Origin: Gammaproteobacteria bacterium
Lineage (GTDB): Bacteria > Pseudomonadota > Gammaproteobacteria > Steroidobacterales > UBA11654
Direction: 5' to 3'
Length of the DNA: 39,651 bases
Assembly: GCA_029941465.1 (NCBI GenBank)
Contig: JAPYQN010000001.1
Coordinates: 129,708-169,358 of the forward strand
How positions within the stretch are numbered: position 1 is the first letter of the stretch; each line of letters opens with the position of its first letter. Under the pieces are notes generated by a model. That model did not search any database and had not been told where the DNA came from. It saw only the letters and a list, made by a program, of their open reading frames with translations. The position numbers and the translations under genes are program-made. Positions 31,100-39,334 of the stretch are shown piece by piece.

Positions 31100-31996
31100 T
31101 CACATCAACATTTTTTCAAGTGGAACGACTAAAATTGAAGATGCTCCAATTTTTTTTAACCCTTCTAAGGTTTCCCAAAACACTGTTTCTTTACAAACAA
31201 CATGAACAGCAACGGTGGTATTAGTGCCCTCAAGTGGCAATACTGTAGGTGCTTCAGTTCCAGGCAATAGCTCAGTTATCTTTTGAAGGGAATCCTTAGG
31301 TGCATGCATCATAATATACTTGCTCTCACTGACTTGTATAACGCCATTAATTCTTTCAATTAGTTTTTTAATCCAAGCTTCTTTAGAATCGCTTAAAACC
31401 TGAGTTGAGCGTAGAACAGTGGCCACGCTATCTAAAACTACCTCACCTTGAATTAGATTATGAACCTTTAAAGTATTTCCAGTAGAAACTAAGTCACAAA
31501 TTGCCTCTGCCTTTCCTAAGCTTGGTGCCAGTTCAACTGCCCCAGAAAATTGAGTAACATAAACATTCAATCCTTTTTCTTTTAGAAATTTTTTAACAAT
31601 ATTTGGATAACTTGTTGCAATTGTTTTACCTTCAAGATCATAAATAGATCGATAGGAACTGGATTCAGGGTAAGCAAAAGTCAAGCGGCATTGACCAAAA
31701 TTCAAGTTTTCTTCAAAACTAAATAAGCAACCCTGTTTACTATTATCCATGGCTATTTTTTTTTCTAGGGCAACATTCTTTCCAACGATCCCCAAGCTAC
31801 ATAAATTCTCTTGAATTAAATCAGGAATATCATCGTCTCTTACAAACATAAGATCAATCGGCATATTTTCTCCATAACCAATCAATTGATTCTTGGCTTG
31901 ACTAAAAATTAACCCACATTTCTGAAGTAGTGTAGTGCTATGTTCAGTCAGTCTCCCAGATTTTTGTATCGCTATTTTTATCCTTGTCTCTGACAT
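31100..31996 (-). CDS. hisG: ATP phosphoribosyltransferase, long form
   Basis: KIAIQKSGRLTEHSTTLLQKCGL, DLMFVRDDDIPDL, IATSYPNIVKKFL, AEAICDLVSTGNTL, C-terminal regulatory domain (298 aa). Confidence 0.96.
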   Translation of the reverse strand: MSETRIKIAIQKSGRLTEHSTTLLQKCGLIFSQAKNQLIGYGENMPIDLMFVRDDDIPDLIQENLCSLGIVGKNVALEKKIAMDNSKQGCLFSFEENLNFGQCRLTFAYPESSSYRSIYDLEGKTIATSYPNIVKKFLKEKGLNVYVTQFSGAVELAPSLGKAEAICDLVSTGNTLKVHNLIQGEVVLDSVATVLRSTQVLSDSKEAWIKKLIERINGVIQVSESKYIMMHAPKDSLQKITELLPGTEAPTVLPLEGTNTTVAVHVVCKETVFWETLEGLKKIGASSILVVPLEKMLM

Positions 31997-32298
31997 TATT
32001 TAATCCTTTTTAATGCAAGCGCATAACCGTCTGAACCGTCATATAAGAATCTAGCAACACGACCAATAGTTGTGACACTAACGCCAGTCATAGAGTTGAT
32101 TTCTCTATAGGTATAACCTTGATTAAGAAATTCAGCTACTAGCCATCTGTCTTTGATTGATTGAAGTTCAGCAGGTGTAAAAATATCACCAAAAAATGCA
32201 CGATGTTCATCAAGATTTCTCAATGACATAATCGCTTTATATAGCCTTTCTTCAGCTGCTGTCTCTTCTTTATTCGTTAAAACTCTATCTAATTTCAT
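31996..32298 (-). CDS. TrpR/YerC-like DNA-binding regulator, first gene of the his cluster
   Basis: LDEHRAFFGDIFTPAELQSIKDRWLVAEFLNQGYTYREINSMTGVSVTTIGRVARFLYDGSDGY, a TrpR-superfamily YerC/YecD pattern; last base overlaps the hisG start. Confidence 0.88.
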   Translation of the reverse strand: MKLDRVLTNKEETAAEERLYKAIMSLRNLDEHRAFFGDIFTPAELQSIKDRWLVAEFLNQGYTYREINSMTGVSVTTIGRVARFLYDGSDGYALALKRIK

Positions 32299-32383: not shown

Positions 32384-33442
32384 TTATGAAGAAATTTTAG
32401 ATGCTATAGCGTTGCCCATAGCTACGGTGCTAACAAAATTTTCTTTGGATAAATCTACGGTAAAAATTCCATCGTCAAGGACTGATTCAACTGCATTATC
32501 TATTGCTGAGGCCTCTTCTTTTAGACCTAATGAATGACGTAATAACATAGATGCTGACAGTATGATTCCACATGGATTAGCTAGTTCCTTACCTTGTATA
32601 TCTGGTGCAGAGCCATGGATAGGCTCATAAACCCCAAAGTTATCATCACTCATAGATGCAGACGGTATCATGCCTATAGAGCCAGTTAACAAAGACGCTT
32701 CATCAGTAAGGATATCTCCAAACAAGTTATCAGCTAAAACCACATCAAAATCCTCTGGCCTTGTTAATAAATGCATAGTAGCTGCATCTGCTAACATGTG
32801 TTCAAGTTCAATGTTCTTATAGTTAGTTTCAAGATAGTCAGTTGTAACACTTCTCCATAATTGGGAAGTTGCCATTACATTAGCCTTATCAACTGAGGTA
32901 ATTTTCCCTCTTCGCTGTTGTGCAAGATTAGCTGCAACCTTGGTAATACGCTGGATCTCAGAGGTTGAATATTCACAAACATCTTTTGCATAATCATCCA
33001 GTCTTACTTTATCTCCAAAATAAATACCGCCAATCAATTCCCGAACAAACATAATATCAATGTCATCTAAGTAGTCGTTTTTTATTGGAGAACAATTAAT
33101 TAATTGAGGGTAAGTCCTGATGTGTCTTAGATTAGCATAAACACCTAAGTCAGATCTCATATCGAGGAGACCTTTTTCAGGTCTAGTTTTAGCTGTTGGA
33201 TCACTCCATTTAGGGCCTCCAACAGCCCCTAGAAGAACAGCATCAGCCTGCTTACATAGATCCTGTGTTTCTTGGGGGTAAGGTGAGCCTGTTTTATCAA
33301 TGGCGATTCCACCAAAAAGAGCATGATTTAGAGCAAAGCTATGGCCAAACTCTTTTTCAATGGCTTTTAGAATTTTAACAGCTTCATTGGTAACCTCAGG
33401 ACCAATTCCATCACCAGGTAATAACGTTATTTCACTTTTCAT
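32384..33442 (-). CDS. leuB: 3-isopropylmalate dehydrogenase
   Basis: LLPGDGIGPEVTNEAVKIL, LLGAVGGPKWSD, RPEKGLLDMRSDLGVYANLRH, FVRELIGGIYFG, PIHGSAPDIQGKELANPCGIILSASMLLRHSLG. Confidence 0.97.
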   Translation of the reverse strand: MKSEITLLPGDGIGPEVTNEAVKILKAIEKEFGHSFALNHALFGGIAIDKTGSPYPQETQDLCKQADAVLLGAVGGPKWSDPTAKTRPEKGLLDMRSDLGVYANLRHIRTYPQLINCSPIKNDYLDDIDIMFVRELIGGIYFGDKVRLDDYAKDVCEYSTSEIQRITKVAANLAQQRRGKITSVDKANVMATSQLWRSVTTDYLETNYKNIELEHMLADAATMHLLTRPEDFDVVLADNLFGDILTDEASLLTGSIGMIPSASMSDDNFGVYEPIHGSAPDIQGKELANPCGIILSASMLLRHSLGLKEEASAIDNAVESVLDDGIFTVDLSKENFVSTVAMGNAIASKISS

Positions 33443-34011
33443 TGTGCATTTTCATATTTAGTAATTTCTAGTTCTTGACTTATTATGTATCCAAGTTGAT
33501 CAATGCCATTTATTAAACAATATCTAGAAAATGATTCCATAGGGAAACTACATGATTTGCCTGTTTCTGTTTCTAATTTAAGACTTTCTAGATCAACTGC
33601 TACTTCGATACCTTCATTGTCTAATAGCGTTTTATGCATATCTTCGGAGACAGTAATTGGAATTAAACCATTCTTTAATGAATTATTTTTAAAGATATCT
33701 GCAAATGAGGTGCTGATAATTGCTTTAAACCCAAAGTCTACTAGAGCCCAGGGAGCATGTTCTCTTGATGATCCGCATCCAAAATTATTCCCTGCAACAA
33801 GAATAGAAGATTTTTTAGCCTCAGGCTTATTGAGAAAAAAGTCCTCTATGGGGTTTCCAAATTTATCAAACCTCCAATCATAAAACAAACAATCACCAAT
33901 CCCTTCTTTTGAAGGGAGAGTAAGAAACCGTGCTGGAACTATTTGGTCTGTATCAATGTCTTCATTGGCTAAATTGATTGTTGACGAACTAAATTTTAAG
34001 ATTTTCTCCAT
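33439..34011 (-). CDS. leuD: 3-isopropylmalate dehydratase small subunit
   Basis: NEDIDTDQIVPARFL, ILVAGNNFGCGSSREHAPWALVDFGFKAIISTSFADIFKNNSLKNGLIPI. Confidence 0.97.
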   Translation of the reverse strand: MEKILKFSSSTINLANEDIDTDQIVPARFLTLPSKEGIGDCLFYDWRFDKFGNPIEDFFLNKPEAKKSSILVAGNNFGCGSSREHAPWALVDFGFKAIISTSFADIFKNNSLKNGLIPITVSEDMHKTLLDNEGIEVAVDLESLKLETETGKSCSFPMESFSRYCLINGIDQLGYIISQELEITKYENAQ

Positions 34012-34014
34012 AGA

Positions 34015-35430
34015 TTATTGATCCTCATATATTCTTGGGTCCTGAACAAAACCCGATATAGCTGATGCAGCGGCTGTTTTTGGGCTAGCCAATATAGTTC
34101 TTGAGCCTTTTCCTTGTCGACCTTCAAAATTTCTATTGCTGGTACTTATAGCTAATTGACCTTCACCAACTGTGTCTCCATTCATTCCTAAACACATTGA
34201 ACAACCAGATTCTCTCCATTCTGCACCTGCTTTTTTAAAAATTTGATCAAGGGCTAAGTTTTCAGCTTCAGCTTTAACAGCTTGTGAACCTGGAACAACC
34301 AAAGTTCTGACATTACTAGCAACTTTCCTATCCTTTAATATATCAGCAGCATCTTGTAAATCTGACAATCGTGAATTTGTACAACTACCAATGAAAACCA
34401 CATCTATTGGTTTTTCTAGAAGCGGCTTACCTGATTCAACTTTCATGTAATTCAGTGCCTGTTTAAAACTTTGATTACCATTATGGTGAGGTACTTCTGC
34501 ATCTATAGACATAACCATTCCGGGATTAGTCCCAAAGGTTACCATGGGTTTTAATGCATCAATATCAATGTCAACTTCTTTATCAAAAACAGCTCCTACA
34601 TCTGTCACTAAGTTTGACCATTTGTTAACAGCTTGTACCCAGTGATCCCCTTTAGGTGACATGGGTTTATTTTCCAGATACTCAAATGTTGATTGATCAG
34701 GAGCAAACATTCCTGCACGTGCACCTCCTTCGATACTCATATTACAAATTGTCATTCGTTGTTCCAATGACAGAGAAGAGACCGTGTTGCCTCGATACTC
34801 AATAACATGTCCAGTGCCTCCATCTACTCCTATGTCTCCTATAATTTTAAGAATAATATCTTTAGCACAAACTCCACTATTAAGGGTGCCAGATAAATTA
34901 ACTGAGAGTGTTTTAGGTTTTCTTTGAAGAAGACATTGAGTTGCAAGAACATGTGCTACTTCTGTAGTTCCAATACCAAAAGCTAGAGCACCAAAAGCAC
35001 CGTGGGTGCTTGTATGACTATCACCACAAACCATTGTCCTCCCAGGTTGAGTTGCTCCTAATTCTGGCCCTATAACATGAACAATACCTCTTCGATCACT
35101 ATCGAAACCATACAATTCTATACCGAAATCATTGCAATTTTTGACCATGTTACGAATTTGTTCAGCAGGTCCTTTTTCTGAAACAATATCAAGATCTCTT
35201 AAACTAGTGACAGGCACAGTAGGAGTAGAATGATCCATCGTTGCCAAAACTTTTTTTGGGTTCCTAACTTTAAGGTTGTTTTCTCTTAAAAGAGTAAATG
35301 CTTGAGGTGTTGTTACCTCATGGATCAAATGCAGATCAATATAGATTAAAGCCGGGGTGTCAGGAGTCTCAGGAACGACAACATGTTGTTCCCATATTTT
35401 TTCAAAAAGGGTTTTAGGTCTCCTACTCAA
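34015..35430 (-). CDS. leuC: 3-isopropylmalate dehydratase large subunit
   Basis: TLFEKIWEQHVV, LIYIDLHLIHEVTTPQAF, VCGDSHTSTHGAFGALAFGIGTTEVAHVLATQ, FIGSCTNSRLSDL, CSMCLGMN. Confidence 0.98.
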   Translation of the reverse strand: MSRRPKTLFEKIWEQHVVVPETPDTPALIYIDLHLIHEVTTPQAFTLLRENNLKVRNPKKVLATMDHSTPTVPVTSLRDLDIVSEKGPAEQIRNMVKNCNDFGIELYGFDSDRRGIVHVIGPELGATQPGRTMVCGDSHTSTHGAFGALAFGIGTTEVAHVLATQCLLQRKPKTLSVNLSGTLNSGVCAKDIILKIIGDIGVDGGTGHVIEYRGNTVSSLSLEQRMTICNMSIEGGARAGMFAPDQSTFEYLENKPMSPKGDHWVQAVNKWSNLVTDVGAVFDKEVDIDIDALKPMVTFGTNPGMVMSIDAEVPHHNGNQSFKQALNYMKVESGKPLLEKPIDVVFIGSCTNSRLSDLQDAADILKDRKVASNVRTLVVPGSQAVKAEAENLALDQIFKKAGAEWRESGCSMCLGMNGDTVGEGQLAISTSNRNFEGRQGKGSRTILASPKTAAASAISGFVQDPRIYEDQ

Positions 35431-36352
35431 CGTTATCTAGCCAACCCCATTGATCAACAGTAGATCCATCAAATAATCCAAAAAAAGTTTTCTGAATCTT
35501 TTCAGTAATTGGGCCCCTTGTTCCAGTACCAATCTGAATTCTATCTACAGTTTTAATCGGAGTTATCTCAACAGCGGTACCAGTAAAAAATAATTCATCA
35601 GCAACATAAAGTTCTTCTCTTGTAATTTCTCTTTCTATAACAGTGTGCCCCAATGTTTCAGCAATTTTTATTACAGCATCTCTAGTGATTCCATCAAGGA
35701 TGGATGAACTGAGAGGAGGGGTATAGATTGTATTGTCCTTAACAATAAAAATATTTTCTCCAGCTCCTTCGCTAACCATTCCATTTGAATCTAAACAAAT
35801 TCCTTCGTCAAAACCATTTTGCTTGGCTTCAATAGCGACAAGTGTTGCAGATAAATAGTTGCCTGAAGCTTTTGCCATAACCGGTATAGTATTGGGTGCA
35901 ATTTTATTCCAAGAAGAAACACATACATCTACGCCACTCTCTAAACCTTCTTTTCCAAGATAGGCTCCCCATTCCCATGCTGCAACAACCACCTCTATAT
36001 CATCATCTAGAGACGCATGCAGACCAAGATCATGGAATCCTCTAAAAGCAATCGGTCGAATATATGCACCATTGTTTAATTCATTAGAAACAACAACAGT
36101 TCGACATGCATCCATTATTTGGTTTAAATCAAATGCCATATTCATTCTGTATATTTTTGCAGAATTAAATAATCGCTTAATATGATCTTCTAATCTAAAG
36201 ATCCTAGTACCGTTATTTGTAGAGTAGGCTCTGATCCCCTCAAATACTGCTGCACCGTAATGCAATGCATAACTTAAAACATGGATTTGAGCTTCCTCCC
36301 AAGGAACAAGCTTGTTATTAAACCAGATGTGTTTGGTTGGTTTTAGCGGCAT
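35423..36352 (-). CDS. ilvE: branched-chain amino acid aminotransferase
   Basis: IWFNNKLVPWEEAQIHVLSYALHYGAAVFEGIRAYST, YIRPIAFRG, KASGNYLSATLVAIEAKQNGFDEGICLDSNGMVSEGAGENIFIV. Confidence 0.96.
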   Translation of the reverse strand: MPLKPTKHIWFNNKLVPWEEAQIHVLSYALHYGAAVFEGIRAYSTNNGTRIFRLEDHIKRLFNSAKIYRMNMAFDLNQIMDACRTVVVSNELNNGAYIRPIAFRGFHDLGLHASLDDDIEVVVAAWEWGAYLGKEGLESGVDVCVSSWNKIAPNTIPVMAKASGNYLSATLVAIEAKQNGFDEGICLDSNGMVSEGAGENIFIVKDNTIYTPPLSSSILDGITRDAVIKIAETLGHTVIEREITREELYVADELFFTGTAVEITPIKTVDRIQIGTGTRGPITEKIQKTFFGLFDGSTVDQWGWLDNVE

Positions 36353-36360
36353 ATCTTCCT

Positions 36361-37896
36361 CTAATGTCTATTTCTATTTCTTTCTATTCTGTTTATAACT
36401 TCAAGATAAGCTAAAGCGCCTGACTCTATTATATCTGTACTGATCCCATGCCCTCTAAAGTCTTGTCCTTCATAGCTCACAGTAACAGTAACTTCACCTT
36501 GTGCGTCTTCGCCGACACTAACACTATGAATCTCAAAGTTGGTTAATTCAAGATTGTATCCGGTTATTTCCTCAATGGCATTAAAAACTGATTCAATTGG
36601 TCCACTAGAAGGTTGTTCCGCTGTCGATACTTCATGTGTAGATCCATCAAAATGTTTAAGCTTTAACTCTGCACAAGCACCCCAAGAAGATCCTGATGAT
36701 GTTTCTAAATCAATAAGTTCCCAAGTGCTTAGTGTTCCCCCATCTGCACTAAGAACAATTGCCTCTATATCACTATCAAATATATCTTTTTTTCTATCTG
36801 CAAGTTTCTTAAACTCCCCGAATGCAGGATCTAAGTCTTCATTGCTTAATTCATAACCTAACTCTTTTACTCTGTCGAGAAATGCATGTCTTCCACTGTG
36901 TTTACCCAGCACTAGATTTGAACGGCCGATGCCTACATCCTGTGGTTTCATAATTTCATAAGTAGAAGCGTGTCTCAACATCCCATGCTGATGAATGCCT
37001 GCTTCATGGGAAAAAGCATTATCCCCAACAATAGCTTTGTTTCTTGGCACATGCATGCCAGTAATGGTTGATACTAATCTACTTGTCGGATAAAGCTTCG
37101 TGCTGTCAATTGACGTGTAAAAATCAAAATACTCTTTCCTTGTTCTTATTGCCATACAAACTTCTTCAAGTGAAGTATTCCCGGCTCGTTCACCAATACC
37201 ATTGATAGTACATTCTACTTGTTGTGCACCAGATTCTAATGCAGCCAAACTATTAGCAACTGATAGGCCAAGATCATCATGACAATGGACACTAAAAATC
37301 ACGTCTTCAGCATTATTACAATTAGTGATTAGATGTTTAAATAATTCACCAAATTCATAAGGTATGGTGTAACCAACTGTATCAGGGATATTAATCGTTG
37401 TGGCTCCAGCTTCAATTGCTGCATTAACAACCTCAGTTAAAAAATCATGATCAGTTCTTGAAGCATCTTCAGGTGAAAACTCAACATTCTCACAATACTC
37501 TTTAGCCATTTTTACACCATTATAAGCTGCCTTGATAACCTCATCTTTAGCCATATTCAATTTATGCTTAAGATGTATCTCACTGGTTGCAACAAATACG
37601 TGGATTCTTCCATTAGGACTTACTTCTAATGCTTGTTGAGCCTTTTCTATATCTCCCTCATTACAACGAGCTAAGCAACATATAGTTGGACCTTCAATTT
37701 CACTTGCAATTGCTTTAACTGATTCAAAATCACCTGGAGATGCTGCTGCAAAACCTGCTTCTATAACATTCACATTCAAATCTTTCAGTGCATGTGCAAT
37801 TTTTAACTTCTCACCCAAAGTCATACTGCACCCTGGAGCCTGTTCACCGTCTCTCAAGGTTGTATCAAATATAATTATCTCTTTTGATTTATTCAT
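36361..37896 (-). CDS. leuA: 2-isopropylmalate synthase
   Basis: IIIFDTTLRDGEQAPGCSM, HCHDDLGLSVANSLAALESGAQQVECTINGIGERAGNTSLEEV, AFSHEAGIHQHGMLRHASTYEIM, C-terminal LeuA regulatory domain. Confidence 0.97.
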   Translation of the reverse strand: MNKSKEIIIFDTTLRDGEQAPGCSMTLGEKLKIAHALKDLNVNVIEAGFAAASPGDFESVKAIASEIEGPTICCLARCNEGDIEKAQQALEVSPNGRIHVFVATSEIHLKHKLNMAKDEVIKAAYNGVKMAKEYCENVEFSPEDASRTDHDFLTEVVNAAIEAGATTINIPDTVGYTIPYEFGELFKHLITNCNNAEDVIFSVHCHDDLGLSVANSLAALESGAQQVECTINGIGERAGNTSLEEVCMAIRTRKEYFDFYTSIDSTKLYPTSRLVSTITGMHVPRNKAIVGDNAFSHEAGIHQHGMLRHASTYEIMKPQDVGIGRSNLVLGKHSGRHAFLDRVKELGYELSNEDLDPAFGEFKKLADRKKDIFDSDIEAIVLSADGGTLSTWELIDLETSSGSSWGACAELKLKHFDGSTHEVSTAEQPSSGPIESVFNAIEEITGYNLELTNFEIHSVSVGEDAQGEVTVTVSYEGQDFRGHGISTDIIESGALAYLEVINRIERNRNRH

Positions 37897-37912: not shown

Positions 37913-38959
<1,047 letters not shown>

Positions 38960-38971
38960 TCAGATCTTGTT

Positions 38972-39000
38972 AAAAAAAAACCCCGCTTTTCTGCGGGGCT
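38972..39000 (-). terminator. intrinsic terminator / attenuator in the ilvC-leu leader
   Basis: Minus strand AGCCCCGC-AGAAAA-GCGGGG followed by T9, between the leader ORF and ilvC. An upstream complement of its 5' arm (GTGGGGCT, 39036-39043) can form an antiterminator. Confidence 0.85.
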
Positions 39001-39026
39001 CTTTTAAATTAAACTTTTATAAAAAT

Positions 39027-39146
39027 CTATAAGTTAGCCCCACTAGCATCTATTTCTAGCAGAATTAGTAGCTCTAAGGCTAAATAGAGTGACTTATTCC
39101 CTCTAAATTGATCGTTGTTTTTTCTATTCATGTGGCAAATGGTCAT
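39027..39146 (-). CDS. putative ilv/leu leader peptide (39 aa, or 34 aa from ATG at 39131)
   Basis: MTICHMNRKNNDQFRGNKSLYLALELLILLEIDASGANL*: 7 Leu and 2 Ile codons within 13 codons, stop 27 nt upstream of the attenuator stem. Not in the supplied ORF track. Confidence 0.75.
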   Translation of the reverse strand: MTICHMNRKNNDQFRGNKSLYLALELLILLEIDASGANL

Positions 39147-39334
39147 AGAAGTATGTGTTTTTGTCAACATTTATTAAATAAATAATTATTTTGGAACACT
39201 AAGAGTAAATCGTTAAAGACAAAAAAATGATGAAATTAAATTAATTTTTTAGTTTTGTCCCAAGCAGATGACTTTTTACTATATATAGATTATTGATTGT
39301 GAATTTTACATTGTAAATTTTTTATGTATAACCC

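Follow-up and report, generated by a model that had tools for sequence, protein, structure and literature searches.

The leu and ilv operons are subject to ribosome-mediated attenuation, and the leader of the enterobacterial ilvGMEDA operon carries Ile, Val and Leu codons. Like that system, the leader described here would exert ribosome-mediated control over branched-chain genes, but unlike in ilvGMEDA it is Leu alone that is enriched. The enterobacterial leu attenuator (leuL; Rfam Leu_leader, RF00512) shares with it a Leu-rich leader peptide with control codons leaning to CUA, an antiterminator and a terminator, and the control of leu genes. The present operon differs in opening with ilvC and including ilvE, and its leader probably has a leaderless start and shows no conserved pairing between RNA segments 1 and 2. 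The ilvB-OMG motif, a proposed attenuator, likewise has an upstream frame rich in branched-chain codons (PMC10272879), but it sits before ilvB, whereas the present leader precedes ilvC. Leaders without a ribosome binding site have been described in hosts of other classes or phyla. The trpL leader mRNA of Sinorhizobium meliloti is leaderless (PMC7298713), as are leuL1, leuL2, trpL1 and ilvL of Streptomyces lividans (PMC8079986), and the ilvBNC leader of Corynebacterium glutamicum is described as having no ribosome binding site in the title of a reference given in PMC4046766. As far as these sources go, the shared trait is an mRNA that begins at or near the start codon without such a site. LeuL1 of S. 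lividans has no typical terminator (PMC8079986), whereas the present leader has a strong one. Leaderless attenuator leaders are thus already known in Sinorhizobium and Actinobacteria, and the probable leaderless start is the main unusual feature of this locus. A literature search returned no paper dealing with attenuation in SAR86, and none describing an ilvC-leuA attenuator in Gammaproteobacteria; the main survey of proteobacterial attenuators, by Vitreschak et al. (2004; cited in PMC1262725), may cover part of this ground. No Rfam family matched the leader at the gathering score, and no attenuator family fitted it at a permissive E-value (Leu_leader, RF00512, reached 19.7 bits against a cut-off of 50). 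Twenty leaders from other families of the order also gave no Rfam match at E 0.01.

The leader lies upstream of ilvC in the analysed stretch of DNA (39,651 nt, hereafter the window) and very probably acts as a ribosome-mediated, Leu-sensing transcription attenuator of ilvC-leuA-ilvE-leuC-leuD-leuB, with what would be a leaderless start (Table 1). The ORF, its Leu run, the alternative pairings, the terminator, the promoter spacing and the operon order come from the sequence and its comparison with relatives; the leaderless start, ribosome stalling and the response to leucine are what we infer. Operon genes were identified by NCBIfam. Gaps or overlaps between the six genes do not exceed 16 nt, and no terminator-like site with a stem of more than 5 pairs was found on the coding strand from ilvC to leuB. 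The family set comprised 11 genomes of two genera, with G010 representing the other genus, and ilvC was found in all of them. Gene order from ilvC to leuB is identical in the 11 genomes, which bears out the proposal of the sequence-only reading that one attenuator heads a combined operon. After leuB there is an 85-nt gap, a yerC-type gene and then his genes; this continuation is shared by the genus, but the 16 kb read in G010 contained neither yerC nor his genes. The yerC-type gene (nt 31996–32298) is TrpR-related, lies between leuB and hisG in all genus members, and possibly links the leu and his operons.

Table 1. Features of the leader region and the operon downstream (positions are those of the window).
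Feature	Position (nt)	Strand	Basis or remark
-35 hexamer TTGACA of leader promoter	39162–39167	-	identical in 10 family genomes; common to 42 regions of the order
-10 element GACCAT (nAnnAT), 17-nt spacer	39139–39144	-	A, A and T at positions 2, 5 and 6 kept in 37, 38 and 37 of 42 regions
Predicted transcription start (A of the leader ATG or the adjacent nucleotide)	39131–39132	-	inferred from -35/-10 spacing
Probably leaderless leader ORF of 34 codons and a TAG stop	39027–39131	-	same start in 10 family genomes
Leu/Ile control codons, 7 Leu and 2 Ile within 13 codons	39051–39089	-	sequence
Segment 1, TTAGCC, pairing with GGCTAA (39039–39034) in this genome only	39078–39083	-	MFE fold
Segment 2, GTGGGGCT, antiterminator 5' arm, in the ORF ahead of the stop	39036–39043	-	pairs with segment 3 in 11/11
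Segment 3, AGCCCCGC, antiterminator 3' arm and terminator 5' arm	38993–39000	-	sequence and family comparison
Segment 4, GCGGGG (38986–38981), and U9 tract (38980–38972), terminator	38972–38986	-	GCGGGGTTTTTT invariant in family
ilvC, ketol-acid reductoisomerase, SAR86-like copy	37913–38944	-	NF004017, 548.9 bits; tree
leuA, 2-isopropylmalate synthase	36361–37896	-	TIGR00973, 685 bits
ilvE, branched-chain transaminase	35423–36352	-	TIGR01122, 426 bits
leuC, isopropylmalate dehydratase large subunit	34015–35430	-	TIGR00170, 625 bits
leuD, isopropylmalate dehydratase small subunit	33439–34011	-	TIGR00171, 195 bits
leuB, 3-isopropylmalate dehydrogenase	32384–33442	-	TIGR00169, 446 bits

Read from ATG 39131, the leader peptide has 34 residues, MNRKNNDQFRGNKSLYLALELLILLEIDASGANL, and the frame closes with a TAG at nt 39029–39027 of the minus strand. 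The Leu/Ile run reported earlier (39089–39051) does hold 7 Leu and 2 Ile codons among its 13, and 8 Leu occur among the last 22 codons of the leader (P = 5e-4 at the local Leu frequency). In one relative (G002) the leader is cut by a contig end, with the Leu run kept, leaving ten complete family leaders. Each of these is a short ORF rich in end-product codons, with 5–8 Leu in the last 22 codons, while the remainder of the peptide diverges. Pooled over the ten, the last 22 codons contain 64 Leu in 220 codons, compared with 9.2% in the genes of the window. Terminator and segment 2 are found upstream of ilvC in 11/11 genomes and the Leu-rich leader in 10/10 complete cases, so that none of these relatives keeps the terminator and loses the frame, a loss that the sequence-only reading had named as telling against attenuation. 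Codons CTA and CTG together supply 62% of the leader Leu codons versus 20% in window genes (P = 1e-12, Fisher, over ten related leaders with kinship ignored), and this enrichment could in part be an effect of RNA pairing. In E. coli, CUA followed by CUG have been argued to be the most responsive Leu control codons, and UUA or UUG to make poor ones (PMC1183508).

All four RNA segments quoted in the sequence-only reading, together with the nine T, were recovered at their minus-strand coordinates. An intrinsic terminator precedes the first structural gene, and the fold of the leader RNA is 3.9 sd more stable than those of dinucleotide shuffles, none of 200 being as stable. The antiterminator (2:3) forms in all 11 family genomes, with energies of -16 to -24 kcal/mol (20 °C) that are similar to those of the terminator (3:4), which likewise folds in 11/11 (20 °C). 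The two structures would compete in every member, and the 5' arm of the antiterminator is the part that a ribosome at the stop codon would mask. The family alignment also answers the suggestion that covariation be sought: 2:3 pairing is present in 11/11 genomes and two pairs show two-sided changes. The pair beside GGGG/CCCC is C-G in eight genomes and U-A in three (G007, and G003 with G004), which represent two separate lineages, and the pair two places on the other side of GGGG/CCCC is G-C in three and A-U in two family genomes. Changes in segment 3 preserve a G-U or A-U pair with segment 4. The GGGG stands 2–3 codons ahead of the stop throughout the family. Among 73 leaders with a terminator, the 2:3 pairing of a leader with its own partner scored -20.3 versus -17.7 for swapped segments (sd 0.34), and none of 20,000 permutations was as good, a test that ignores relatedness and base composition. 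The proposed 1:2 pairing (TTAGCC with GGCTAA), a candidate protector hairpin that would block 2:3 in an untranslated leader, is strong in G000, the window's genome, but the pairing partner is not kept in relatives.

The predicted promoter would place the transcription start at the start codon or beside it. In ten family genomes the leader ATG sits 35, 36 or 37 nt past the first T of an invariant TTGACA. Across the order, 122 regions upstream of ilvC were compared; their in-frame ATGs peak 35–37 nt after TTGACA, with a second group at 53–59 nt, and out-of-frame ATGs lie no more than 27 nt from TTGACA, save a few in one frame. The leaderless spacing, defined as an ATG 35–39 nt after TTGACA, was found in 42 regions from six families (f1, f2, f4, f7, f11 and f15), the choice of start being less secure in f11. 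Within this set, a -10 element of the form nAnnAT follows TTGACA after 17 nt, its positions 2 (A), 5 (A) and 6 (T) are kept in 37, 38 and 37 regions respectively, and a Shine-Dalgarno sequence ahead of the start was seen in none of the 42. Since TTGACA lies 35–37 nt before the ATG and a Shine-Dalgarno sequence is absent, the leader mRNA is probably leaderless, beginning at or next to ATG 39131, as judged from promoter geometry. A consensus promoter scan did not report the leader promoter because its -10 element, GACCAT, is weak. The combined promoter and ATG pattern occurs twice in the window's own genome, at the leader and at the promoter of a tRNA operon, with no occurrence of a reversed-pattern control. 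The tRNA operon promoter (L292:1495–1545, minus strand) reads TTGACA-N17-GAAAAT, the same unusual form, which suggests that TTGACA-N17-GAnnAT is a strong promoter type in this genome.

Under the proposed mechanism, RNA polymerase would begin with the A of ATG 39131, or with the nucleotide beside it, and a ribosome would load on the leaderless mRNA. With ample Leu-tRNA, it would reach the stop at 39029 and cover segment 2, upon which the 3:4 terminator would form and transcription would end at the U tract. When Leu-tRNA is scarce, the ribosome would stall in the Leu run with segment 2 free about 13 nt ahead, and 2:3 would form before segment 4 is made, allowing read-through into ilvC.

Four other readings of the locus were considered. 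The sequence-only reading started the leader at ATG 39146 (39 aa), which would leave the attenuator as it is but move the transcription start upstream. This frame is open in G000, G007, G001 and G010, and the ATGs 53–59 nt after TTGACA in families f11 and f6 imply a short 5' UTR there. However, the counterpart of ATG 39146 is out of frame in G009, G006, G005 and G008, whereas the 39131-type ATG is kept in all ten; furthermore, ATG 39146 is located upstream of the -10 element, between the two promoter hexamers, and it has no preceding Shine-Dalgarno sequence, any more than ATG 39131 does. This version is thus quite improbable, and the leader almost certainly starts at ATG 39131 rather than at 39146, judging from the family comparison. 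A GC-rich hairpin with a U run can also stand alone, as an example on contig 3 of the same genome does without a leader, and the hairpin before ilvC might be an ordinary terminator of upstream transcription, the Leu-rich ORF being a chance, untranslated frame. Such a coincidence is barely credible given that the Leu frame, the 2:3 pairing and the stop spacing are all conserved in the family and found again across the order.

If the hairpin does belong to an attenuator, it might sense several branched-chain amino acids (Leu with Ile or Val), in the manner of enterobacterial ilvGMEDA. Ile codons adjoin the Leu run (two in G000) and Val codons occur beside it in some relatives, but per 22 leader codons Ile (1–3) and Val (0–2) stay near their backgrounds of 9% and 6%, and Leu is the only residue enriched in every family leader. 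Multiple sensing is accordingly unlikely. As regards the earlier suggestion that Leu and possibly Ile are sensed, the comparison supports leucine as the residue to which the attenuator would respond; Ile sensing is unsupported because Leu alone is consistently enriched. Action in trans, of the kind reported for rnTrpL and peTrpL of S. meliloti (PMC7298713), is highly improbable for the leader peptide and for the leader RNA left by termination. A small leaderless mRNA would build up once transcription has terminated, as it does in S. meliloti (PMC7298713), but peptide conservation, even between members of the family, is confined to the Leu run and to the codons that segment 2 fixes. A Leu-sensing attenuator acting on its own operon from a probably leaderless start therefore remains the preferred reading.

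Throughout the order, ilvC is commonly preceded by a candidate Leu attenuator and usually followed by leuA. A Leu-rich frame is present in 95 of the 122 regions, and at least 5 Leu in 8 codons occur in 58% of the 122 versus 1.4% of first-order Markov shuffles. In L213, L219, L229, L236, L259, L277 and others (families f11 and f6), the same Leu attenuator is accompanied by ATGs that in many cases lie 53–59 nt after TTGACA, or by none in the leaderless position; one attenuator thus seems to occur within the order both with and without a leadered mRNA. The peptide ends in a recurring RCG motif in L213, L219, L225, L229 and others. These residues are imposed by CGGTGCGGG, an RNA segment that pairs with CCCCGCACCG, so that a constraint on the RNA shows up in the peptide. 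Elsewhere in the window's genome, ilvN (L128:822–1316, minus strand) and ilvB (L128:1483–3285, plus strand) are divergent and do not form ilvBN. The regions preceding ilvB in eight other family genomes (L129–L136) look alike and share a conserved block in the gap ahead of that gene. Inspection of the region before ilvB revealed no Leu ORF that, together with a terminator, would resemble an attenuator. The second genomic match to the leader, on contig 3, proved to be just a similar terminator hairpin.

The ilvC gene below the attenuator probably has a different history from its neighbours. In a tree of 55 IlvC sequences, the genus groups with SAR86-labelled and other marine copies (support 100/99), and G010 falls with the ilvC-leuA type of the order in a separate clade (100/100). 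Named records with IlvC 80–82% identical belong to the SAR86 cluster or to other gammaproteobacteria, and in those SAR86 genomes ilvC directly follows an ilvN-type frame, with no attenuator. By comparison, the LeuA proteins of the window and of G010 share 77% identity, and LeuA sequences within the family are closer to one another than to those elsewhere in the order. The attenuator is common to both genera. The most economical account has a SAR86-type gene taking over the position of the native ilvC, where it would have come under the ancestral attenuator. Two observations point to this direction of transfer: the position of the SAR86 ilvC after an ilvN-type frame, and the order-type ilvC of G010, which has a long branch.

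Taken at the level of the order, it is likely that ilvC-leuA operons are controlled by a Leu attenuator that is leaderless in several families and leadered in others, and that the genus captured a SAR86-type ilvC. Leucine attenuation would thereby extend to streamlined, mostly uncultured marine Gammaproteobacteria, for which the literature search found no attenuator study. The 122 regions provide a large comparative set for testing a leaderless start inside an attenuator; such a start, if true, would mean that the first ribosome is coupled to RNA polymerase from the opening nucleotide of the transcript. The locus also indicates that a regulatory RNA can persist through the exchange of its target gene for a foreign copy, and therefore that the attenuator, not the enzyme, may be the stable part of the operon.
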